From: Halorussus amylolyticus
GTDB taxonomy: Archaea > Halobacteriota > Halobacteria > Halobacteriales > Haladaptataceae
Direction: 5' to 3'
DNA: 64,000 bases
Assembly (NCBI RefSeq): GCF_004143485.2
Contig: NZ_ML974133.1
Span: 62,001-126,000, forward strand
Shown here: one piece after another, positions 13,445 to 51,436 of the stretch
Position numbering within the stretch: the first letter of the stretch is position 1
How the letters are laid out: each line of letters begins with the position of its first letter
The notes under the pieces: generated by a model
What the model saw: the letters and a program-made list of their open reading frames with translations, nothing else
The model's database searches: none
Told to the model about the DNA's origin: nothing
Made by a program: the position numbers and the translations under genes

Positions 13445-14203
13445 ATGACAGTCATCGCGGTCGTCGCCGACCCGCCCCGGCCAGGACTCGCGCTCGCGAC
13501 CCTCACCAAGTCGTCGCCGCTCTCGGACTCCGAGGCGGCCGACCTCTACGCCGCGAGCCTCAAAGACACCGTCCGCGCGGTCGAACGGAGCGGCGGCGAA
13601 CTGCTGGTGAACTACCGGCCCGACGAGATGCTCCCCGACGAACACGCGAGCGAGCAGAGCGCCGAGGCCGAACTCCGCGCGCTGGTCGCGGACGCGCTCG
13701 AAGACCCGAGCGAGGCCAGATTCGAGGTGCAGGTCGGCTCGACGCCGTCGGCGCGCGCTGGCAACACCGTCACCCATCTGCTCGACCGCGAGGAAGTCCA
13801 GTCGGCCGCGGTGGTGCCCGGCACCGCGCCGATGCTGACCCGCCAGACCATCGACGGCGCGGCCATGAAACTCCGGCGCAACGAGGTCGTCCTCGGCCCG
13901 AGCGCGCGCGGCGGCGTCTACTTCGCGGGGTTCACCACCGCCGACCTCGACTTCGAGGACGCCTACGCCGTCCCCGAAATCGAGACGCTGACGACCCGCG
14001 GCGCGGACGCGGGCCACGAAGTCGAGTTTCTGGCGACTCAGACGCGCGTCGAGACCGGCGCGGACCTGCTCTCGCTGGTCCCGGTGCTGAACGCTCGCAT
14101 CGCGGCCGGGCGAATCGTGCCCGAGCACACGACCACCCTGATTCGCGAGTGGGGGCTTCGGGTCGTGGAGGAAGACGGTGAGCCGACATTGGTTCGCGAG
14201 TGA
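13445..14203 (+). CDS. DUF2064-like protein (glycosyltransferase/nucleotidyltransferase fold)
   Basis: This 252-residue protein starts with a Rossmann-like strand followed by PRPGLALATLTKSSPLS and EAADLYAASLKDT. These align in pattern with DUF2064 proteins (P-x-P-G ... K-T-R-L ... LY-x-x-x-L-x-D-T), a family related to GT-A glycosyltransferases and CofC-like nucleotidyltransferases. The classical KTR is changed to ATLTK, so activity may differ. The C-terminus (ATQTRVETGADLLSLVPVLN) is haloarchaea-specific. It diverges from the DUF5785-like gene. Confidence 0.6.
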   Translation: MTVIAVVADPPRPGLALATLTKSSPLSDSEAADLYAASLKDTVRAVERSGGELLVNYRPDEMLPDEHASEQSAEAELRALVADALEDPSEARFEVQVGSTPSARAGNTVTHLLDREEVQSAAVVPGTAPMLTRQTIDGAAMKLRRNEVVLGPSARGGVYFAGFTTADLDFEDAYAVPEIETLTTRGADAGHEVEFLATQTRVETGADLLSLVPVLNARIAAGRIVPEHTTTLIREWGLRVVEEDGEPTLVRE

Positions 14204-14254
14204 AGCGTTTTTAACGTCCAACTCTTTTGGTATCTGTCGAAAGGTAGTTCTGAA

Positions 14255-15331
14255 TCACCAACTGCCGGAGAATTCGCACTCTAGACCCACCTTCACTGGA
14301 AGTTCCGATGCGTACCGTTTCTTATTGTCTGAGTTCAAGTTTGTGAGAAGATAGTATCCGCTAGAAAGTTCTTGTTGGCCCCTCATATCGGAACCGTTCG
14401 GGTGTTTGGGCTTGTCATTGATTAGCGCACGACTTCCCTGACCGGTTCCGGGAATATACGGGATTTCGATCTCCTCCAGAAGGTCTTCCTCCTCAATAAG
14501 ATAATTGACGAGGGAAGCCATCGTTTCAGATTGCACGTCTCCAGCAGTTCGATAGACCGTCTCCCCATTTCGACCGAGACAAATGACGTATTCTCCGTCC
14601 TCTGGTCCGACATCATCCCCGGATGATTCTCGGATGACCGCTGTCTGATGTGCCTGTTCTTCCAGCGTCTCGATCAGATCATCAACGAAGCCCTTCGCCT
14701 CGTTTTCGACTTGCTGTGACACAGAATTTCCAGCCACCTTGGTAACGACGCCAGTTACGTCCTCCGCAAGGTCTTCCTTATTTTTCCGGAGAGAAGTAAC
14801 TGCGTTCTGTACCGCTTCGATTTTCTCTGCAATCTGTCGCGATTCTCCGGAGTCGATGGACTCACGCGAAAGCGCCCGAAGGGGATGTTCGTTGCTTGGG
14901 ACGGTCTCAATCGAAAATTTCGCGAGGGAGATTTCGTTGGGCCTGTTGCTGGAAACGTCGCGGCGGAAAATCTCGAACTCGCGTCCGTTCGAGAGGAGTC
15001 CCCAATCGACACCGACTTGGCGCATGTAGCTTTTTAATTGGTTCTCGTGACTCTGTCCGAGCGGTGTGTCACACCCTTTCGCTTCTACAAAGACGACAGG
15101 CGTTCCCTCTCGCTTGAGAGCGTAATCGACCTTTTTTGTCCCCGACCCCATCTGGACGGAATGCTCAAGTTCAACATCCGAGCTGAGGATCTCCCATCCA
15201 AGAAGGTCGATTAGCGGTTCGATAATCTTCCGCTTGGTGTTCTCCTCGTCCATCTGCGGAGAGTTCTTAATAAGCTGAATTGATCGCTCGGTGTAGTGAG
15301 ATAAGTCCTTGGAGAGCGACATAGTGCTCAC
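14255..15331 (-). CDS. HsdR-N-type PD-(D/E)xK nuclease-domain protein
   Basis: This is a 358-residue protein. Residues 10-150 match the N-terminal nuclease domain of type I restriction HsdR subunits: a helix with KRKIIEPLIDLLGW, then KVDYAL (D69) and VVFVEAKG (E83, K85) forming the PD-(D/E)xK site. Residues 165-225 look coiled-coil. The C-terminal part (GYYLLTNLNSDNKKRYASEL) is a separate conserved domain. There is no helicase or methylase. GTG 15331 overlaps the upstream stop as GTGA, indicating translational coupling; ATG 15322 is an alternative. Base composition is clearly lower in GC than the flanks, a sign of transfer. It is likely a defence or selfish-element nuclease; the target is unknown. 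Confidence 0.75.
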   Translation of the reverse strand: MSTMSLSKDLSHYTERSIQLIKNSPQMDEENTKRKIIEPLIDLLGWEILSSDVELEHSVQMGSGTKKVDYALKREGTPVVFVEAKGCDTPLGQSHENQLKSYMRQVGVDWGLLSNGREFEIFRRDVSSNRPNEISLAKFSIETVPSNEHPLRALSRESIDSGESRQIAEKIEAVQNAVTSLRKNKEDLAEDVTGVVTKVAGNSVSQQVENEAKGFVDDLIETLEEQAHQTAVIRESSGDDVGPEDGEYVICLGRNGETVYRTAGDVQSETMASLVNYLIEEEDLLEEIEIPYIPGTGQGSRALINDKPKHPNGSDMRGQQELSSGYYLLTNLNSDNKKRYASELPVKVGLECEFSGSW

Positions 15332-16089
15332 TTCGACCCCCGAATGCGCTGAACAAGACCTGCAATCTGTTCTTCACTCTTATTGGTCACATCGTACTCG
15401 ACTTTTAATTTCAATTGCCCAGCGGCTTCGTCAGCTTTTAACACCATCTCATCAACTTCAGTGGAAACTCCACCAACATCGGTCGTGGTGTCCCTTGTCC
15501 CCTCCTCGACAGTTTCCTCTGGTTCGGGAGTTGGGTACTCATCGACAAGCTTGCTGATGAACTTCTCATGTTGGTCGGACACTTCAAGTCGCGTCTCGAA
15601 CCCTTTCCTGCCCGTGATGAACTTCCCGAGTCCAGCCGCCTGAGCGGTTTTTATTAAGAGATTGATTTCCCTGTCCGTGTGCTCCTCTCCGGTCGATGCT
15701 TCAGCCTTCTCTTTGAAGACGCTCTGTTTAATCGCCGGATTTCCGTTGACCTTCTCCACTAAATCACCGGCGTGAATGCGTAGGAGTGTATCCCGATAGG
15801 GTTCGTAGAACTCTATTGCCTCACGAAATGCTTTCCGTACGGACTCATCTCCTATATTCTCGGAGTAGCTAATACCCGAGCCACGACCGGTATTCTGAAC
15901 ATGACCATCCTCGACGGTTAAGAAGCCGAGTTTCACGCCATAGTTAATGCTGGCTCGAACCTGCCGTTGGTCAATATCCAATTGGCTGTAGAGGTCGTTC
16001 TTCTGGGAGCCGTTAACATCGCGTAAGTGGTTACAGAGGCTGTGTAGCGCCTCGGGTTTTGCTCGACTGGGGAGTTCGACGGAGGCCAT
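15328..16089 (-). CDS. Island protein with N-terminal winged-helix-like region (DUF5343-like architecture)
   Basis: This is a 253-residue protein. Residues 5-70 resemble a DNA-binding winged helix (KNDLYSQLDIDQRQVRASINYGVKLGFL). Then follow FREAIEFYEPYRDTLL and REINLLIKTAQAAGLG, an arrangement reminiscent of DUF5343 proteins, a disordered acidic stretch (175-200), and a C-terminal strand-helix segment. Its stop overlaps the start of the nuclease gene (GTGA), so the two proteins are made together. Low GC, as in the nuclease. ATG 16089 is preferred to GTG 16092. Its role is unknown: it could be a regulator, or a sensor that loads the nuclease. Confidence 0.65.
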   Translation of the reverse strand: MASVELPSRAKPEALHSLCNHLRDVNGSQKNDLYSQLDIDQRQVRASINYGVKLGFLTVEDGHVQNTGRGSGISYSENIGDESVRKAFREAIEFYEPYRDTLLRIHAGDLVEKVNGNPAIKQSVFKEKAEASTGEEHTDREINLLIKTAQAAGLGKFITGRKGFETRLEVSDQHEKFISKLVDEYPTPEPEETVEEGTRDTTTDVGGVSTEVDEMVLKADEAAGQLKLKVEYDVTNKSEEQIAGLVQRIRGSK

Positions 16090-16115
16090 CACATAACAGG
16101 TTTCTCATCCCCCGT

Positions 16116-16125
16116 CTAAATAGTT
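16116..16125. promoter_or_regulatory. Shared bidirectional TATA-like box
   Basis: CTAAATAGTT is centred about 31 bp before ATG 16089 (minus) and about 24 bp before ATG 16144 (plus). One AT-rich box could therefore drive both the nuclease operon and the divergent small ORF, each with little or no leader. Confidence 0.45.
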
Positions 16126-16143
16126 ACGGTGCGGGCGTGTAAG

Positions 16144-16293
16144 ATGTCCCGCGAAAAGAACCCGGATATTCAAGCATTTAACGTCCTCTGGACCGCTTTC
16201 TCATCTGAAGGGAAAATATGGTGGGAATGGGCTGTTTTGACGGCTATGTTCCGCCAGCGGTATATTTCCACTTATAGAAGATGGATTAAGTAG
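16144..16293 (+). CDS. Divergent Trp-rich small ORF, 49 residues
   Basis: The ORF starts at ATG 16144 and ends at TAG 16291-16293. It encodes a protein with four tryptophans (NVLWTAF, KIWWEWAVL, RRWIK) and a basic C-terminus, compatible with an amphipathic or membrane-associated helix. Three things support it as a gene: a TATA-like box 20-27 bp upstream, a strong hairpin with a T-run 2 nt after the stop, and the island's base composition. I recognise no homologue. It may be a regulator, toxin-like peptide or third component of the divergent nuclease operon, or a chance ORF. Confidence 0.45.
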   Translation: MSREKNPDIQAFNVLWTAFSSEGKIWWEWAVLTAMFRQRYISTYRRWIK

Positions 16294-16294
16294 C

Positions 16295-16319
16295 GAAAAC
16301 GCCGCCTCACGGCGTTTTC
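16295..16319 (+). terminator. Hairpin terminator after the 49-residue ORF
   Basis: GAAAACGCCG (16295-16304) pairs perfectly with CGGCGTTTTC (16310-16319) around a CCTCA loop. The 3' arm supplies a four-T run. It lies directly after the stop at 16293 and before the convergent small genes, so it probably ends transcription from both sides. Confidence 0.6.
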
Positions 16320-16385
16320 AACCAAATTCAATAAGATAGCTGAGGATGTTCGCAAATGATTCGACCACCGATCTGGTGTCCGTGT

Positions 16386-16532
16386 TTACTCTTCGGGTCC
16401 TGTAGAACGCCGAACCGAAACACCGTCTGCGGACAGACCGTGTTCCTCAGCAACGTCCAGCACGTTGGTCAGGAACTCCGTGGTCACGTCGTCCCGTGAG
16501 ACGCCTTCGAGGCGTAGAGTCAGCGTATCCAT
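16386..16532 (-). CDS. Small conserved-looking protein, 48 residues
   Basis: ATG 16532 to TAA 16386. It has a regular strand-helix-strand look: MDTLTLRLEGV, TEFLTNVLDVAEEHGL, then DGVSVRRS. The size and alternating pattern fit a small ligand-free domain such as those adjacent to haloarchaeal HTH regulators. It starts 3 nt after the stop of the upstream 39-residue ORF, so the two form a tight pair. I recognise no family. Confidence 0.55.
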   Translation of the reverse strand: MDTLTLRLEGVSRDDVTTEFLTNVLDVAEEHGLSADGVSVRRSTGPEE

Positions 16533-16535
16533 CTC

Positions 16536-16655
16536 TCACACCTCCGTCTCGCCGGTCGCCATCAGTTCACGTTGTATCGCGCGTTTGGGGTTCTTCGCGC
16601 TGATATCGGGTCGCTGTACGACAGTCTTTTGTCGGCGGATTTCGATAGTTGCCAT
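16536..16655 (-). CDS. Small basic protein, 39 residues
   Basis: ATG 16655 to TGA 16536. It encodes MATIEIRRQKTVVQRPDISA and continues KNPKRAIQREL. It is basic, unlike most haloarchaeal proteins, so nucleic-acid or antitoxin-like binding is conceivable. It is the first gene of a leftward pair with the 48-residue protein and diverges from the wHTH regulator across the operator-like region. No homologue is recognised. Confidence 0.5.
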   Translation of the reverse strand: MATIEIRRQKTVVQRPDISAKNPKRAIQRELMATGETEV

Positions 16656-16751
16656 TGGTCTTCCCTACTGAGAAGGCCATCGTCCGAGTGTTCTAGCACT
16701 CGGGCGTTTTCGCGGAATCGAACGCCCCGAGGGATTTCGGCCTTCTACCAA

Positions 16752-16800
16752 TAACCACGTAGTTACTGGCCATAAATATTTCCCTTCAATCACGTAGTCA
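16752..16800. promoter_or_regulatory. Operator-like repeat pair around an AT-rich box
   Basis: TAACCACGTAGTTA (16752-16765), a near-palindrome, and CAATCACGTAGTCA (16787-16800) share the core TCACGTAGT/CCACGTAGT. They are 35 bp apart centre to centre and flank CATAAATATT (16771-16780), a TATA-like box. The arrangement between divergent genes, one encoding a wHTH protein, suggests autoregulation. A related AACTACGT occurs at about 17203-17210 upstream of the tRNA. Confidence 0.5.
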
Positions 16801-16834
16801 CAGACTTGATGCCCACCGATTCCGAAGGCGGAGT

Positions 16835-17074
16835 ATGAAGCGGGAGCGAAACGAGTCGGGAGAGTACGTCGAGCAAGTGACGCCCGATGCGGTTCTCGAC
16901 GTTTTCGAGACAGCAGACCTACCGGTACTGACCGCGACGGAGGTGTCCGAAGAATTGGACTGTTCCCGAGCGTCGGCCTACAACAAACTGGAGCAGTTAG
17001 TCGCCCAAGGGGAAATCCAGAAGAAGAAAGTGGGCGCACGCGCAGTGGTGTATATTTTTATGAATGATGACTAA
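16835..17074 (+). CDS. Small winged-helix transcription regulator
   Basis: This 79-residue protein is a single wHTH domain. Helices VLDVFETADLPVLTATEVSE and CSRASAYNKLEQLVAQGEI are followed by a wing KKKVGARAVVYIF. It is the type of stand-alone regulator common near haloarchaeal mobile elements and small operons. It presumably binds the repeat pair 35-80 bp upstream and controls itself and the divergent 39/48-residue pair. Confidence 0.8.
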   Translation: MKRERNESGEYVEQVTPDAVLDVFETADLPVLTATEVSEELDCSRASAYNKLEQLVAQGEIQKKKVGARAVVYIFMNDD

Positions 17075-17239
17075 CAGCATCTCAATGCGTCTCGTGGGAG
17101 ATACGTCTGCATTCGATTGAATGGTCCTCGGACGTGCGGAGAGAATAACGACACTTTCAAATTTCTCGGGGTTAGACATAGACGTACACCTCGCTATTCG
17201 CGAAACTACGTAATTTACCGGGGTGGAACGCCGATTCGT

Positions 17240-17322
17240 GGTGGGATGGCAGAGCGGCCTATTGCGCCTGCCTTGAAAGCAGGTGGCGTCAAGCCTCCTG
17301 GGTTCAAATCCCAGTCCCACCG
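17240..17322 (+). tRNA. tRNA-Ser(TGA)
   Basis: It folds as a complete type II tRNA. Acceptor GGTGGGA pairs with TCCCACC and the discriminator is G. The anticodon arm is CCTGC-CTTGAAA-GCAGG with anticodon TGA. A long variable arm (GGC-GTCAA-GCC) typical of serine tRNAs follows, then T-arm CTGGG-TTCAAAT-CCCAG. There is no intron and no encoded CCA. It borders the low-GC island, but I found no second copy of its 3' end marking an attachment site. Confidence 0.95.
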
Positions 17323-17623
17323 CATTCTCCGACGAACAGACGCGATACGCAACCCCGGGAGCGGCGCTGTTGAAACGTTCGAGAAGTCACGACGTTGGCC
17401 AGTATCGGGGCCGAATGCGGACTCTCCCGAAAGCACGGTCGCTCCGATTCGTTGGTCCCAACCTTTAAATCTCCCCGCCGCGAAATAGTAAGTGAAGAAG
17501 AATTAAATTCTAGTTGACAATATTTATCCGCGAGCACCGGCTATCCTTCAGTCCCACTCGAAGTTCACCAACCCCGATTCGGTTCGGTCGTATCGCTCCC
17601 CGAACGACGACGGTTACGAGCCA

Positions 17624-18334
17624 ATGGCAGAGAAAAGATACCCTAACACTATCGACTGGGACGAGTACTGGAACGAGGCCGACGAGGACGTGCGAACGGA
17701 CACGAGTCCGAGCGCGGACCTCGTGTTGGAGCCCTTTGTCGAGTTCCTCGACGCGAGGCTGCCCGACGGACCGGACACCTACGCCGACGTCGGTTGCGGA
17801 CCGGGTGACTTGGTGTTCGAGGTCTCCGACCGCTACCCGGAGACGACCGCAGTCGGGTACGATTCCGCCGAGGCGGTCCTCGCGGAGAACCGCAAACGCG
17901 CACGAGCGACGAATTTGGACATCTCCTTCGAGCGGGCAGTCCTCCCGGAGTTCGAACCCGACCGCCGGTTCGATGTCGTCTCCTGTTTGTTCACGCTCTG
18001 CTACGTCGCGGACACCGAGCGCACGATAGAGCAACTCTACGACGCGGTCGAACCCGGCGGCTACCTCGTCATACACTACCACAATCGGCTTGCACAGGCC
18101 CACTACCGCACCCTCGCGGAATCGCCCCACGAGTATCTCGACGAGGACTCCGTTTGGAACCCCGAGACGTTCGCCGACCGATTCGAACTCGTCGTCGAGG
18201 GGGAGAGTCTACTGTCGTACGAGCGCATCCGTGAGATACTGGGGACGTGGCCACAGAGCGTTTTTTCGGTGGCCGACGACGCCGAACAGTACGGTGCCCA
18301 CCGCCACGAGCCGCTCGTCTACGTCCCGAAGTGA
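17624..18334 (+). CDS. Class I SAM-dependent methyltransferase
   Basis: This 236-residue Rossmann methyltransferase has motif I ADVGCGPGDLVFEV (about 49-62), an acidic motif II around VGYDSAEAV, and a motif IV region RFDVVSCLFTLCYV. The C-terminus EQYGAHRHEPLVYVPK is specific to the subfamily. The substrate cannot be inferred. AT-rich sequence with TATATT-like boxes lies 95-110 bp upstream, so a leader of some length is likely. The 300 bp between the tRNA and this gene hold nothing else that I can support. Confidence 0.85.
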   Translation: MAEKRYPNTIDWDEYWNEADEDVRTDTSPSADLVLEPFVEFLDARLPDGPDTYADVGCGPGDLVFEVSDRYPETTAVGYDSAEAVLAENRKRARATNLDISFERAVLPEFEPDRRFDVVSCLFTLCYVADTERTIEQLYDAVEPGGYLVIHYHNRLAQAHYRTLAESPHEYLDEDSVWNPETFADRFELVVEGESLLSYERIREILGTWPQSVFSVADDAEQYGAHRHEPLVYVPK

Positions 18335-44168: not shown

Positions 44169-47100
44169 CTACCGGGACCGCCCGAACAGCACCGCCGCGG
44201 CCCCGAATCCGAGGAGTGCACCGAGGTCGGTCGCGCTCGCCGGGACTCGGTCGGACGACGCCGCGGTGGTCTCATCGACGGCGGTCGTCTCGTCCCCCAC
44301 GCCGTCTTCTTCGGGCGTCTCGTCGTCTATCTCGTCTTCCTCAGTCGTCTCGTCGTCGAACACGTTCTCGGTCGTCTCATCGACGACCACGCCGTCTCCC
44401 TCCTCGGTGGTCGGAAGCGCGGCGGTCGTAGTGGCGGCCTCCTCGCCACCGAAGTCCACGACCGCCGTGTCGAAGACGAGTTCGTCGGTCTCGTTGAGGT
44501 ACGGGATGTCAACGTCTTCGTCTTCGGGGTAGCTGAACGCCTCGTCCTCGTCGGTGTCGCGGTGGGGCACCGAGAGCAGTACCTGCTCGCCGGTGAGATC
44601 CTCATCGAGTTCGACCGGCACGTCCTCGTACTCGCCGGGTTCGAGGTACTCCGAGGCTCCCACGAACTCGGTCTCGCCGTCGTAGAGCGCGACGAATCCG
44701 CCGTCCGGGACGAAGACGGATTCAATCACTACTTCGTCGTCGGCGGTCTGGTTCTCGAAGGTGACGTTGGCGAACTCGGCTTCGGCCGTCGTCGTCGCTT
44801 CCGCTGTCGTGGTGACTTCTGCGGTGGTGGTAGTCTCTCTGACGGTCGTCGGTTCGACTTCCGCAGTGGTCGTTTCGGCCACCGTGACTTCATCGACCGT
44901 CGTCGTCTCCACACCGATGCCTGTCGTCTCTTCGACTTCGGTCGCTTCGGCGGTCGTCGTTCCTTCGATGGTCGTCGTCTCGTCCGGCAGAATCGTGGTT
45001 TCCTCGACGGTCGTTTCTTCGGCGGTGGTTTCTTCGATAGTCGTTTCTTCGGCGGTGGTTTCTTCGATAGTCGTTTCTTCGGCGGTGGTTTCTTCGACGG
45101 TTGTCTCCTCCACAGTCGTCTGCTCGACGGTCGTCGGGAGTTCGGCGGTCGTGGTTTCGACTCCCTCGCCGTCGAACGCCACGATTGCAGCGTCCGAGAT
45201 GAGTTCGTCGGTCTCGTCGAGGTACGGGAAGTCCTCCTCGCCGCCGGTCTCGGCGAAGTCGTACGTCTCGTCGTCGTCGGTGTCGCGGTGTGGCACCGAG
45301 AGCAACACCTGCTCGCCGTCGAGGTCCTCGTCGAGTTCGACCGGCACGTCCTCGTACTCGCCGGGTTCGAGGTACTCCGAGGCTCCGACGAACTCGCCGT
45401 CGCCGTCGTAGAGCGCGACGAATCCGCCCTCGGGAAGCGCGACCGAATCGACGTCCACGTCGCCGTTTTCGGCGCTCTTGTCCTCGAAGACGACGCTCGC
45501 GACGTCGGGAACGTCCGGTTCTGGCTCGGTCGTTTCCTCGGCGGTCGTCGTTTCTTCTGCTGTCGTTTCCTCGACTCCCGTAGTCTGTTCGACAGTCGTG
45601 GTTTCCTCGGCCGTGGTGGTCTCTTCGACCGTGGTTTCTTCCGCAGTCGTGGTCTCCTCGACTGTGGTCGTTTCCTCGGTAGTCGTGGTCTCCTCTGCGG
45701 TCGTGGTTTCTTCCGCAGTCGTGGTCTCCGCGACTGTGGTCGTCTCCTCAGCCGTAGTCGTCTCCGCGACGGTCGTCGTCTCCGGAGTCGCCGTCTCGGT
45801 CGTCGTCACCTCCTCGACCTGCGAGGAGGATTCGCTCGCGGTCTCCTTAAGTTCCTCCGGGGAGATATCGGGGTTTTCGGCGAGCGCGTCGCTCGCTTGG
45901 GTCGCGCCCTGTCGCGCCGCGGTCCGAATCTGTCCGACCTCCTCGACGCCCTCTTCGGCCGCGGCCTGCGCCGCGCCGGACGCCGAACCGAGCGAGATGA
46001 CCTGAATCTGCTGAATGTTCACTTCCTGAATCTGGACGACCGTCCCGGCGGCCGCACCCTGCGATGCCGCCTGAATCTGCTGGACGTTCGCGACCTGACT
46101 CTGTGAGATGCCGCCGGTCGCCGCGCCCTGCGAGGCCGCCTGAATCTGGCGGACGTTCACGACCTGATTCTGAATCGCCGACCGGAGCGCGCCGTGGGAC
46201 GCCCCCTGCGAAGCGGCCTGAATCTGGGCGACGTTCGCCTCCTGGGACTGGACGAGCGAACCGTACGCCCCGCCCTGCGTGGCGGCCTGAATCTGGCGGA
46301 CGTTGACTGTCTGGCTCTGGACGATGCCGCCCTTGGCCGCGCCGTTCGCGGCGGCTTGGACCTGCCGGACGTTCACGACCTGATTCTGGACCGCCGACCG
46401 GACCGCGCCCTGGGCCGCACCCTGCGCGGCGACCTGAATCTGGACGATGTTCACGATTTGGACCTGCACGACCGTGACCTGCACCAGCGCGCCGCGGGCC
46501 GCGCCTCGCGCGGCCGACTGAATCTGGTCGACGTTGACCTCTTGGGTCTGGACGACGGCACCGGTCGCCGCCCCGGTCGCCGCGACCTGAATCTGCTCGA
46601 TGGTGACCTGCTGGGTCTGGCTCACCGCACCCGCGGCCGCGCCCTTGCACGCCGACTCGGTTTTGTCGGGGCGCTTGGACTTCTTCACGCCGCCCTTGGC
46701 CGCGCCGAGCGCGGCGACCTGCACCTGCTTCACGTCGGCGCGCTGGGTCTGGACGAGCGCGCCGTCCGACGCACCGCGTGCGGCGGCCTGAATCTGCTCG
46801 ACAGCGACCTTCTGACGCTGGTCGAGCGAGCCGTAGGCCGCGCCCTGCGCGGCCTCCTGAATCTTGCCGAGGTGGTCCACGTCGTTTTCGGCCGCCGACT
46901 TCGCCGCGCCGTGGGACGCGCCCTGCGCGGCCGACTGAATCTGTTCGACGCTGGCTTTCTGTCGCTGTGCGAGCGCGCCGTGGGACGCGCCGTACGCCGC
47001 GCCCTGAATCTGGCGGACGTTCGCGGTCTGGTCCTGCTGTATCGGGCCGGCGGTCGCGCCCTGCGCGGCGACTTGCACCTGCTCGACGTTCGCGTCCTGC

Positions 47101-47525
47101 GACTGGACGAGCGCGCCGTGGGCCGCACCGCGCGCGGCCGACTGAATCTGGCGGACGTTCGCGGTCTGGCTCTGGGTCGCCGCCTCGACCGCGCCCTCGA
47201 CCGCGGCGCGGCGCTTCTCGGGTTCGACGGTCGCGCCCGACTCACGTGCGAGGAGTGCACCCTCTATCGCGCCGCGAGTCGCGGCCTGCCGTCGCTGATT
47301 CTCGTTCGCCTGATTGCTGCCCTGCGCGGCACTCTCGCCGCGAATCTCGGCGGTCTGCGTTTCGGCTAGCACTTCGGGACCGTCAATCGCGGCCCCCGCG
47401 CGCTCGGCCGCCGACGAGTCGGCGGCGCTCGGGGTCCGGTCGGCCGGTACCGCGCCGACTGCCGCGCCCGACGTTACGAGCAGGCCGACGACGAGGACGG
47501 TCACTGCGTGTCCGATTGTTGGCAT
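44169..47525 (-). CDS. Giant exported repeat protein: 23-residue QIQ/GA repeats plus two DUF7282-like domains
   Basis: This 1118-residue protein has a signal peptide (1-25). Residues 123 to about 530 hold some sixteen repeats of 23 residues (three of 26), consensus NVxQIQxAAxGAxxGxxxQxQ. Thr/Glu-rich linkers at about 575-670, 800-915 and 1030-1090 separate two near-identical beta domains (about 675-790 and 915-1030). These share GGFVALYDG, VGASEYLEPGEYEDVPVELD and VLLSVPHRDTD, a DUF7282-like domain. A short C-terminal membrane segment with RSR anchors it. It is extracellular by design; the repeat region could be a fibre, adhesin or filament. ATG 47525 is chosen because the longer frame lacks a signal peptide. 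It stands alone, with family 2 copy F2 upstream. Confidence 0.85.
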   Translation of the reverse strand: MPTIGHAVTVLVVGLLVTSGAAVGAVPADRTPSAADSSAAERAGAAIDGPEVLAETQTAEIRGESAAQGSNQANENQRRQAATRGAIEGALLARESGATVEPEKRRAAVEGAVEAATQSQTANVRQIQSAARGAAHGALVQSQDANVEQVQVAAQGATAGPIQQDQTANVRQIQGAAYGASHGALAQRQKASVEQIQSAAQGASHGAAKSAAENDVDHLGKIQEAAQGAAYGSLDQRQKVAVEQIQAAARGASDGALVQTQRADVKQVQVAALGAAKGGVKKSKRPDKTESACKGAAAGAVSQTQQVTIEQIQVAATGAATGAVVQTQEVNVDQIQSAARGAARGALVQVTVVQVQIVNIVQIQVAAQGAAQGAVRSAVQNQVVNVRQVQAAANGAAKGGIVQSQTVNVRQIQAATQGGAYGSLVQSQEANVAQIQAASQGASHGALRSAIQNQVVNVRQIQAASQGAATGGISQSQVANVQQIQAASQGAAAGTVVQIQEVNIQQIQVISLGSASGAAQAAAEEGVEEVGQIRTAARQGATQASDALAENPDISPEELKETASESSSQVEEVTTTETATPETTTVAETTTAEETTTVAETTTAEETTTAEETTTTEETTTVEETTTAEETTVEETTTAEETTTVEQTTGVEETTAEETTTAEETTEPEPDVPDVASVVFEDKSAENGDVDVDSVALPEGGFVALYDGDGEFVGASEYLEPGEYEDVPVELDEDLDGEQVLLSVPHRDTDDDETYDFAETGGEEDFPYLDETDELISDAAIVAFDGEGVETTTAELPTTVEQTTVEETTVEETTAEETTIEETTAEETTIEETTAEETTVEETTILPDETTTIEGTTTAEATEVEETTGIGVETTTVDEVTVAETTTAEVEPTTVRETTTTAEVTTTAEATTTAEAEFANVTFENQTADDEVVIESVFVPDGGFVALYDGETEFVGASEYLEPGEYEDVPVELDEDLTGEQVLLSVPHRDTDEDEAFSYPEDEDVDIPYLNETDELVFDTAVVDFGGEEAATTTAALPTTEEGDGVVVDETTENVFDDETTEEDEIDDETPEEDGVGDETTAVDETTAASSDRVPASATDLGALLGFGAAAVLFGRSR

Positions 47526-47748: not shown

Positions 47749-47865
47749 GAAAGGGGCCGTCTGCTCGCGTTCATTTCAGTCGCCTCAGCGACCCCTATCC
47801 GCGCCGGTGCGGTGCGGTGAGGCGCGGATATGTCGCTGAGCGACCGCGAGCGGGCGGGGGCTTTC
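47749..47865 (+). repeat. Family 2 TIR/hairpin element, copy F2
   Basis: This 117-bp element has ends GAAAGGGGCCG and CGGGCGGGGGCTTTC. A central stem runs from 47779-47805 to 47821-47844 and includes TATCCGCGCC pairing with GGCGCGGATA, where F1 has TATTTCCGCGC pairing with GCGCGGAAATA. TGGGAATGA precedes the left end, matching TGGGACTGA beside F1. It lies between the giant repeat gene and the presenilin-like gene. Confidence 0.75.
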
Positions 47866-48014
47866 TATATCCTTTCAATTCTGTTATTCCTACTTCAGAG
47901 CAGTCGAGACCATTCAAAACCACTCCAAAAGACGCCAACGACTTCGAACACAAATCACACCGCCCACCACTCGAATCCACAACCGCAAAGTCCGAGGGCT
48001 GTGAGGTCTCCGGC

Positions 48015-49043
48015 ATGAAAGACAGAACGCGCGTGTTCGCGGCGACCGGATTCACCGTCGCGCTGTTTCTCCTTGTCCAACTCGGCGCGCTCGCGCTGGT
48101 CGAACCGTTCCAGCAGGCGGGCTACCAGCAGGTCGAGAACCCCTCGGACCCCACGAACAGCCTCGTCTATCTCGTCGCCATACTCGTGATGACCGCCATC
48201 ATGCTCGCCATCATCAAGTTCGAGGTGGACTGGCTCCTCCGGGGCGGCATCATCCTCACGACCGGCCTGCTGTCGTGGTACGTCTTCTCGGTCGTGGTCC
48301 CGCCGGTCGTCACCGCCACGGTCGGGGGCGCACCGGTGAACGTCCTCGCAGTCGGGGCCGCCGCGGCCGTCGCGCTCGCGCTGGTGGTCCACCCCGAGTG
48401 GTACGTCATCGACGGCGCGGGCGTCGTCATCGGCGCGGGCGCGGCCGGACTGTTCGGCATCAGTTTCGGCCTGCTCCCCGCGATTCTCCTGCTCGCCGTC
48501 CTCGCAATCTACGACGCCATCAGCGTCTACGGCACCGAGCACATGCTGACGCTGGCCTCCGGCGTGATGGACCTCAAGATTCCGGTCGTCCTCGTGATTC
48601 CGCTCACGCTCTCGTACTCGTTTCTCGACGAGGACGAATCGAACGAGACGGAGGATGGAGATGAGGCGGGCGAGTCGGAAGACCGCGAGGAAGCGGAAAC
48701 GGTCGCGGAAGAATTTGAGAACCACGACGAGGCCGAGCGCCCCGAAATCACCGACCGGGACGCCTTCTTCGTCGGTCTTGGCGACGCGGTGATGCCCTCG
48801 GTGATGGTCGCCAGCGCGGCGTTCTTCGCGCCCCCCGAATCGCTCGTCTCGGGCATCGCGCTCAATCTCCCCGCGCTGACCTCGATTATCGGGACGATGG
48901 CGGGCCTGCTCGTCCTGATGTGGATGGTGGCGAAGGGCCGCGCCCACGCCGGACTCCCGCTGCTCAACGGTGGCGCAATCGGCGGGTATCTCGTGGGAGC
49001 TTTGGCGAGCGGAATGACGCTCACGGCGGCGTTGGGACTGTAG
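48015..49043 (+). CDS. Presenilin-like intramembrane aspartyl protease (A22 family)
   Basis: This 342-residue membrane protein has nine predicted helices. The catalytic aspartates are D167 in IYDAISVYG and D257 in [10 protein letters not shown] (GxGD). The C-terminal AGLPLLNGG (315-317) is the PAL-like motif. An acidic Glu/Asp-rich loop (205-245) separates helices 6 and 7, as in archaeal presenilin homologues. It cleaves membrane-spanning peptides; natural substrates are unknown. ATG 48015 begins the family N-terminus. The frame is open upstream to 47817 through the 3' part of element F2. The 190 bp after F2 carry AT-rich promoter-like sequence. Confidence 0.93.
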
Positions 49044-49149: not shown

Positions 49150-50076
49150 ATGTCGTTCGACGGATTCAGCGACGTGGACGAAGCACAGGTCACCAACGCG
49201 ATTACGGACGCGTGGAGCGAGGAGTTCCTCGGTCGAACCGACACCGACGTACTCGTGGTCGGCGGCGGTCCCTCGGGATTGATGGCCGCGAAGGAACTGG
49301 CGAGTCGGGGGGTCGAAGTCACCGTCGTCGAGAAGAACAACTACCTCGGCGGCGGCTTCTGGCTCGGGGGCTTCCTGATGAACAAACTCACCGTTCGCGA
49401 CCCCGCCCACGAGGTCCTCGACGACCTCGGCGTTCCGTACGAGGCCAGCGACGAGGCCGACGGTCTCTACGTCGCCGACGGCCCGCACGCCTGCTCGGCG
49501 CTCATCGAGGCGACGTGCGACGCCGGGGCCGCCATCCAGAACATGACCGAGTTCACCGACGTCGTGGTCAGGGAGGACCACCGGGTCGCGGGCATCGTGA
49601 TGAACTGGACGCCGGTCCACGCGCTCCCGCGCGAACTCACCTGCGTGGACCCGATTTCGGTCGAGTCCGACCTCGTCATCGACGCGACCGGTCACGACGC
49701 CGTGGTGGTGTCGAAGCTACAGGAGCGCGGCGTCGTCTCGGCCCCCGGCATCGAACACGCCGACGAACACAACACCGGGATGGACGCCTCGGGCGACGAC
49801 GAGTACGGCGCGCCCGGCCACGACTCGCCCGGTCACGACTCGATGTGGGTCAACGAGAGCGAGGACGCCGTGGTCGAACAGACCGGTCTCGTCCACGACG
49901 GACTCGTCGCGACGGGTCTCGCGACCGCGACCACCCACGGGCTTCCGCGGATGGGGCCGACTTTCGGCGCGATGCTCCTGTCGGGCAAGCGCGCGGCCCA
50001 GTGCGCGCTCGACGAACTCGACGCCGACGCCCCCGCCGTGTCGCTGACCCGGACGCCCGCCGCTGGCGACGACTGA
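49150..50076 (+). CDS. thi4: Thiamine thiazole synthase Thi4 (Cys type)
   Basis: This 308-residue FAD/NAD-fold enzyme makes the adenylated thiazole precursor of thiamine. [18 protein letters not shown] is the dinucleotide-binding motif and [14 protein letters not shown] a Thi4 signature. C165 in LTCVDP is at the position of the sulfur-donating cysteine of yeast Thi4 and the essential Cys165 of the Haloferax enzyme, so a single-turnover (suicide) mechanism is likely. It is followed by thiDN with a 1-nt gap. I see no TPP riboswitch in the 106-bp leader region. Confidence 0.95.
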
Positions 50077-50077
50077 G

Positions 50078-51436
50078 ATGTCGGGCGTTCCGGTCGCGCT
50101 GACCGTCGCCGGGTCCGACAGCGGTGGCGGCGCGGGCGTGCAGGCCGACCTCGCGACGATGACGGCCCGCGGCGTCCATGCTACGAGCGCGCTCACCGCC
50201 GTCACCGCCCAGAACACGACCGGCGTTCGAGCGAGCGAGGTGCTCGCTCCCGACCTCGTGACCGACCAGATAGACGCGGTCTTCGCAGATTTCGAGGTCG
50301 GGGCGGTCAAAACCGGGATGCTCGGCGACGACCGCGTGGTCGCGGTCGTCGCCGACGCGCTCGCGGGCGCCGACGTTCCGGTCGTCGCGGACCCCGTGGT
50401 CGTGGCCGAATCTGGCGACCGACTGCTCTCGCCTCGCGGGGTCGAGCGCGTCCGCGAAGCCCTCCTGCCCGCGGCGTCGCTGGTCACGCCGAACGTTCCC
50501 GAAGCCGAATTCCTCGCTGACCTCACCATCGACGGCCCCGACGACGCCCGAGAGGCGGGTCGTCGGCTCTGCGAACTGGGTGCCGATGCCGCCCTCGTCA
50601 CCGGCGGCCACTTCGAGGGCGACCCCGCGGACGTGCTGGTGGCCGACTCGGGAGACCGGACCACTTCGACCCGGACGTTCCGCGCCGACCGCGTGCCCGA
50701 CGCCGCGACCCACGGGAGCGGATGCACGCTCTCGGCGGCTATCGCGGCCGAACTCGCCCGCGGTACGGAACTCCCGGCGGCCGTCGAACGCGCCGAGCGC
50801 CACATCGACCGCGCGATTCGGTGCGGCCGCGAAGTCGGGTCGGGAGTCGGACCGGTCGAACACCTCGCGCCGACGAAGGCCGCCGCGGGGTCCGCGGCGG
50901 CCTGCGACGCCGTCCGGGAAGTCGTCCGGGAATTCGAGCGCCGGAACGTCTCGCGCCTGCTTCCGGAGGTCGGAACGAACGTCGCGGTCGCGCCCGACTG
51001 CGCGGTCGAACCCTCGGACGTGGTGGCGGTCGAAGGCCGGATACACCGAGTCTCCGCCGGTTCCTCGGGCGACGTGACCAGAGCGACCGGCGGGGTCGCC
51101 CCCGGTGCGTCCGACCACGTCGCCCGGTTCCTGCTCGGAATCCGCGAGACCGACCGCGGAATCTCGGCGGCCTGTAACGTCCGGGCCGACGAGGAGGTGG
51201 TCGCCGAGGTCCGCGACCGGTGGGAAACCGTGACGGTTGACCGTGCGAACGAACCCGAAGACGCCGACGGGACGATGGACTGGGTCGCGCGGGAAGCGAT
51301 GGCGGGCCGGGAGTCGGCACCCGACGCGGTGGTGGACGGCGGGGCCGTCGGTAAGGAGTCGATGATTCGAGTGGTGGCGGCCGACGCCGAGAGACTTGCC
51401 GAGAAAATCACTCGCCTCGCCGCCGAACTGGAGTGA
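50078..51436 (+). CDS. thiDN: ThiD-ThiN fusion: HMP/HMP-P kinase and thiamine-phosphate synthase
   Basis: In this 452-residue protein residues 1-260 are ThiD: VAGSDSGGGAGVQADLAT near the N-terminus, MTARGVHATSALTAVTAQNT, and DAATHGSGCTLSAAIAAEL as the kinase catalytic loop. Residues about 275-450 are ThiN, the archaeal thiamine-phosphate synthase replacing ThiE (LLPEVGTNVAVAPD, then GGVAPGASDHVARFLLGIRE). Together with Thi4 it covers joining of pyrimidine and thiazole halves. The operon is thi4-thiDN. Confidence 0.95.
   Translation: MSGVPVALTVAGSDSGGGAGVQADLATMTARGVHATSALTAVTAQNTTGVRASEVLAPDLVTDQIDAVFADFEVGAVKTGMLGDDRVVAVVADALAGADVPVVADPVVVAESGDRLLSPRGVERVREALLPAASLVTPNVPEAEFLADLTIDGPDDAREAGRRLCELGADAALVTGGHFEGDPADVLVADSGDRTTSTRTFRADRVPDAATHGSGCTLSAAIAAELARGTELPAAVERAERHIDRAIRCGREVGSGVGPVEHLAPTKAAAGSAAACDAVREVVREFERRNVSRLLPEVGTNVAVAPDCAVEPSDVVAVEGRIHRVSAGSSGDVTRATGGVAPGASDHVARFLLGIRETDRGISAACNVRADEEVVAEVRDRWETVTVDRANEPEDADGTMDWVAREAMAGRESAPDAVVDGGAVGKESMIRVVAADAERLAEKITRLAAELE

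Follow-up and report, generated by a model that had tools for sequence, protein, structure and literature searches.

We describe a large exported, putative surface protein of Halorussus amylolyticus whose N-terminal half is probably, as judged from its sequence and that of its relatives, an alpha-solenoid of an undescribed type with one helix per 23-residue repeat. The gene lies in a window of 64,000 nucleotides, the whole stretch of DNA that was analysed. In two haloarchaeal families most genomes retain the protein, and the half that defines it is without a family model.

A putative exported protein with an N-terminal repeat array

The open frame begins at an ATG at window position 47525 on the minus strand, and the same frame is free of stops in its orthologues. 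The features of the gene, in window coordinates, are as follows.

44169..47525, minus strand: whole gene, 1118 aa, open frame with an ATG start (MPTIGHAV...); the 3' coordinate includes the stop
47445..47525, minus strand: N-terminal hydrophobic segment, residues 1-27 (hydropathy)
45891..47312, minus strand: repeat block, residues 72-545, about 19-20 units (position-matrix scan and alignment with 16 orthologues)
45960..47168, minus strand: seventeen repeats, residues 120-522, with divergent repeats at 215-237 and 282-304 (position matrix)
46884..46961, minus strand: 26-residue repeat, residues 189-214, 3-residue insertion after ...KSA (position matrix)
46461..46544, minus strand: 28-residue repeat, residues 328-355, 5-residue insertion TVVQV (position matrix and alignment)
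46383..46460, minus strand: 26-residue repeat, residues 356-381, RSAVQN (position matrix)
46167..46244, minus strand: 26-residue repeat, residues 428-453, RSAIQN (position matrix)
45501..45890, minus strand: Thr/Glu-rich linker 1, residues 546-675, 37% Thr, 31% Asp+Glu (composition)
45168..45500, minus strand: DUF7282 domain 1, residues 676-786 (PF23951)
44778..45167, minus strand: Thr/Glu-rich linker 2, residues 787-916, 39% Thr (composition)
44445..44777, minus strand: DUF7282 domain 2, residues 917-1027 (PF23951)
44172..44243, minus strand: C-terminal hydrophobic segment, residues 1095-1118, ending RSR (hydropathy only)

Residues 7-26 have the highest hydropathy of the whole protein, and we read the N-terminal segment as signal-like, a putative Sec signal peptide. 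The first-pass annotation had likewise proposed export, which the hydrophobic N-terminus bears out, and also anchoring at the C-terminus, which is plausible only: the candidate membrane anchor, ATDLGALLGFGAAAVLFGRSR, is recognised by hydropathy alone and is weakly hydrophobic (mean Kyte-Doolittle 1.7 over 17 residues). PGF-CTERM (PF18204), sought at this C-terminus, gave no match there and one in the adjoining BtuF-like protein. The two DUF7282 domains that had been proposed match PF23951 in two stretches (E 2e-52, 176 bits against a cut-off of 27), but they are 67% identical to each other and not, as had been thought, near-identical. The DNA of linker 1 contains tandem repeats of 15-72 bp.

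In residues 72-545, 19 units were placed by a position matrix that had been refined with family members; the uniform array seen at first pass is thus real, and its count of sixteen was low. Seventeen of the units lie in residues 120-522, 15 of them clear and 2 divergent (at 215 and 282), preceded by degenerate units at 72 and 98, and an additional weak unit follows the 19 at about residues 523-545. Most units are spaced by 23; four spacings of 26 (one within the degenerate N-terminal part) and one each of 28, 22 and 21 also occur, and the matrix confirmed RSAxQNQVV as the 26-residue variant. The 28-residue repeat and the one after it read VQVQIVNIVQIQV, and a VVQIQxVN stretch is kept here across the family. 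The array consensus is Q-x-V-[NST]-V-x-Q-[IV]-Q-x-A-A-x-G-A-A-x-G-A-L-x-Q-S.

No family model covers the repeat

No Pfam or NCBIfam model covers the repeat block of the window protein, and a sequence search of the PDB, with the single sequence and with the profile, found no relative of it. The first-pass annotation had recognised no named family for the repeat, in agreement with these searches, and a confident hit to a described repeat family, which would have spoken against its proposal, did not appear in any of the three databases. When 17 repeat blocks and the window protein were compared with Pfam, there was no TPR, HEAT, ARM or PPR match. A literature search of limited extent found no paper on the 23-residue repeat.

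The array is widespread among haloarchaea

Of 59 genomes, from close to distant relatives, 27 contain relatives of the repeat block. For wider searches we built a profile from 17 arrays. Among 391 genomes drawn evenly across the class it detected the array in 110, representing 36 of the 86 haloarchaeal genera sampled; a restriction to close strains, which would have told against the first-pass proposal, is contradicted by this spread. Its own family carries the array in 25 of 28 genomes. In a second haloarchaeal family, which we take to be Natrialbaceae, 103 of 125 genomes and 26 of 29 genera have it. Nearly always a carrying genome has one full-length copy. Because more than 100 other genomes contain this array, and its individual repeats can be recognised in them, it is not a product of chance.

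Outside the order, a draw of 393 genomes of the phylum gave no match but one weak one (E 2e-4), to a 142-aa DUF6781-like helical protein encoded by G654, a genome from a different class. Kinship with DUF6781 was considered and is unproven, given this single weak match in another class and an empty PF20572 search of this genome at E 10. We found no relatives of the repeat block in phage records or viral contigs, and a plasmid search with the low-complexity filter on found relatives only in Halomicrococcus and Halobaculum.

A 351-aa exported-looking protein (L088:3386-4441) contains strongly diverged similar repeats (E 2e-8 to the profile) without the Gln pattern and is possibly a distant relative of the array proteins. 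On another contig, L029:6653-8908 encodes a second form of the repeat, rich in Asn (NQNVNINVIQNAAxGAAxGA), at spacings of 21/24/25/26, and adjoins an asparagine-synthase-family gene (PF00733). Similar loci are probably present in G021 and G025-G027.

C-terminal modules and gene neighbours vary

All full-length proteins that we read have the repeat block in their N-terminal part, and the C-terminal modules that follow it vary: one to three DUF7282 domains, CARDB, TSP3 with up to 17 repeats, a CAP domain, or Thr/Pro/Glu-rich sequence alone. Array proteins span about 700 to 2300 aa and contain some 15-20 copies of the repeat. Averaged over 113 proteins, Asp and Glu make up 7.7% of the block and Lys and Arg 6.1%, versus 25.5% and 1.7% in the remainder. 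An acidic surface is usual for halophilic proteins, and a near-neutral block is unusual in an exported haloarchaeal protein.

Neighbouring genes are common to members of the genus and not to different families. On these grounds the array gene appears to act alone, and an operon partner was rejected. Its neighbours in the window are BtuF/BtuC-like genes and a divergent presenilin/signal-peptide-peptidase-type protease (47817-49043; PF06550, E 1e-88), which is retained beside the array gene in several Halorussus loci. Elsewhere in the window, a Thi4-family gene (49150-50076) adjoins a phosphomethylpyrimidine kinase-ThiN fusion of thiamine synthesis (50078-51436), and positions 1146-1955 hold a 333 bp tandem repeat of 2.4 copies with 74% matches. 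Positions 14000-18000, with a GC content of 0.53-0.55 versus about 0.66, are probably an acquired island; they encode a protein (14255-15331, minus strand) that contains an HSDR_N domain of type I restriction.

The repeat carries a putative helix signature

Across 836 distinct repeats the consensus is Q1 x2 V/A3 [STND]4 V5 x6 Q7 [IVL]8 Q9 x10 A11 A12 x13 G14 A15 A16 x17 G18 A19 [LVI]20 x21 Q22 x23. Position 3 is hydrophobic, position 4 is Ser, Thr, Asn or Asp in 86%, position 7 is Gln in 88% and position 8 is Ile, Val, Leu or Met in 90% of the repeats, a pattern that reads as a putative capping box and hydrophobic staple with its N-cap at position 4. Proline is confined to positions 1-8 and 23, apart from a trace of 0.2% at position 19; the other positions from 9 to 22 have none. 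Within the repeat, positions 9-22 are coupled at distances of i+4 and i+3 and not of i+2.

Some features of the repeat are beta-like. Conservation strictly alternates at positions 1-11 (best angle 180 degrees, permutation p 0.0004), and the Val/Ile/Gln-rich stretch given above and the Asn-rich paralogue NQNVNINVIQNAA have high strand propensity. Alternation at positions 1-9 beside helix-like couplings at 9-22 is what one would see in a mixed repeat, with a strand at 1-9 and a short helix at 10-21, stacked as an alpha/beta solenoid of the leucine-rich-repeat sort. We hold this to be very unlikely: the N-cap motif at position 4 falls within the would-be strand, and the neighbouring helices of such solenoids are parallel and in register, as opposed to the antiparallel neighbours and parallel n/n+2 repeats described below.

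Structure prediction gave one helix per repeat when AF2 was run with six in-register rows (pLDDT 53.8) and strands when it was run on the whole block with two rows (pLDDT 45). Both models are of low confidence and disagree, and they are too weak to decide, so that the fold proposed here is one that we infer. A Foldseek comparison of the helical model with the PDB, for which that model is itself too weak, found nothing at E<=0.001, the best matches being designed helical repeats and toroids. The low pLDDT of both runs, the Ala/Gln/Gly-rich composition and the tandem repeats at the DNA level would also suit a low-complexity, largely disordered spacer in which the repeat is kept only by duplication and conversion. 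That explanation is highly improbable in view of the retention of individual repeats, in identity and order, across genera, the strongly conserved positions over 119 arrays, and the structured covariation.

Covariation suggests antiparallel packing of neighbouring repeats

Mean-field DCA was applied to 1572 adjacent repeat pairs, a sample with few effective sequences (Neff about 80-320) that is contaminated by array-position identity. The strongest couplings between adjacent repeats, 19-12, 11-18, 16-11, 12-17 and 14-16, are antiparallel, and repeats n and n+2 couple in parallel at 11-14, 14-14, 14-18 and 19-16. As controls we paired fixed non-adjacent array positions in 60 sets, which keeps phylogeny and array-position identity and breaks adjacency. 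The antiparallel band of neighbours scored 0.51 versus 0.04 +/- 0.07 in these controls (maximum 0.24), and the parallel score of n/n+2 was 0.24 versus a control maximum of 0.19. Couplings between repeats 3-8 steps apart were at background, as was the in-register parallel band of neighbours. By mutual information, each half of the family showed the antiparallel band (0 of 200 shuffles), and the in-register parallel band was also somewhat raised (1 of 200).

Two further comparisons were less clear. A charge-pair test of helix versus strand was uninformative, its signal being dominated by array-position identity, and the period-2 similarity of repeats expected of a two-layer solenoid was seen outside the protein's own family and not in the window protein. 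The covariation nevertheless suggests the packing that defines an alpha-solenoid, antiparallel for n/n+1 and parallel for n/n+2, in a statistical and not a structural sense. We favour the alpha-solenoid because of this packing and of the i+3/i+4 couplings, whereas in a solenoid of the curlin type neighbours should be parallel and in register.

In a curlin-like beta-solenoid, a functional amyloid, each repeat would form one rung, with Gln ladders, and the protein would polymerise at the surface into matrix fibres. The period of 23 equals that of the average curlin repeat (23 +/- 5), and the residues of positions 1-7 (Q-x-V-N-V-x-Q) are spaced, with Q for N, as in curlin motif a, N-$-Psi-$-Psi-$-Q (PMC10192328). 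The alternation at positions 1-11, the low-confidence AF2 strands and the Val/Ile/Gln- and Asn-rich variants lean the same way, and Haloferax volcanii biofilm is stained by an amyloid dye, with no gene established for this binding (PMC4180959). Curlin repeats, however, contain two motifs with X-G-X-X between them (PMC10192328); here motif b and X-G-X-X are absent, and positions 8-23 read IQxAAxGAAxGALxQS. A PF07012 search at E 10 matches nothing in this genome (E. coli, the control, does match), and no curlin match was found in any of the 17 blocks at E<=1. The N-cap signature, the proline distribution and the i+3/i+4 couplings at positions 9-22 also argue against it, as do neighbours that couple antiparallel and not in register. 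We consider this reading unlikely; on the PF07012 searches and the covariation it was rejected as first choice and kept as a rival. Of the first-pass proposals, the regular solenoid-type repeat is supported, and the curlin or amyloid-like fibre is not.

A model of the array protein

In the alpha-solenoid that we propose, each repeat would form one helix of about 17 residues (about positions 5-22), with its N-cap at position 4 and a short Q-S-Q-x-V turn to close it. Neighbouring helices would run antiparallel and next-neighbours parallel, giving a rod-like domain. The small residues A11, G14, A15 and G18 would allow unusually tight helix packing, and the variable positions 6, 10, 13 and 17 would face the solvent. 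The conserved Gln 1, 7, 9 and 22 would lie near the hairpin ends, forming Gln rows on both edges of the rod, and insertions of 3 residues (one turn) and 8 residues would extend single helices.

Linkers rich in Thr and probably glycosylated would connect the exported rod to exchangeable C-terminal modules. The rod may hold or present these modules or may itself bind other components of the envelope, and its low charge would suit a packing surface. Most likely, the protein serves as a stiff, nearly charge-neutral scaffold or as an adhesion rod or stalk of the envelope, a role and orientation that we infer indirectly.

If the model holds, this would be a compact extracellular solenoid of single-helix repeats and would be stable close to salt saturation despite lacking the usual acidic surface. 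We think it quite unlikely, and mention as speculation, that this class of single-helix Ala/Gly-zipper solenoids polymerises edge to edge through its Gln edges into a surface lattice or filament of most members of whole haloarchaeal families, perhaps switching to beta-fibres as a candidate amyloid-dye-binding biofilm matrix. For the dye binding of Haloferax volcanii in particular, the array protein is possibly a candidate and no more. The protein offers a target for structure determination and repeat-protein design, and for asking how haloarchaeal envelopes and biofilms cohere.

Comparison with known systems

DUF7282 (PF23951) occurs twice in the C-terminal half of the window protein and also in orthologues from other families, but the repeat block lies outside it and is found without it, with TSP3, CAP or no known domain. 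The DUF6781-like protein of G654 (PF20572) resembles the array in its V-x-x-x-V-x-x-A-x-G-A-x-x-G-A repeats of about 22 residues, whereas it is charged, cytoplasmic-looking and only 142 aa long. Curlins (CsgA/CsgB, PF07012) are likewise exported repeat proteins with a period of about 23 and a Q-x-Psi-x-Psi-x-Q spacing like that of motif a; the window protein differs in being very large and multidomain, with a helix signature and with no profile match, motif b or X-G-X-X arcs. The alpha-solenoids (TPR, HEAT, ARM and PPR; classes reviewed in PMC11514114) share with the model tandem helices with antiparallel neighbours and parallel next-neighbours, as the covariation suggests for the array. The window protein, unlike these, has no Pfam match to its repeat, is exported and Ala/Gly/Gln-rich, and would pack tightly through small residues, with one helix per 23 residues in place of a helical hairpin of 34-47 residues.
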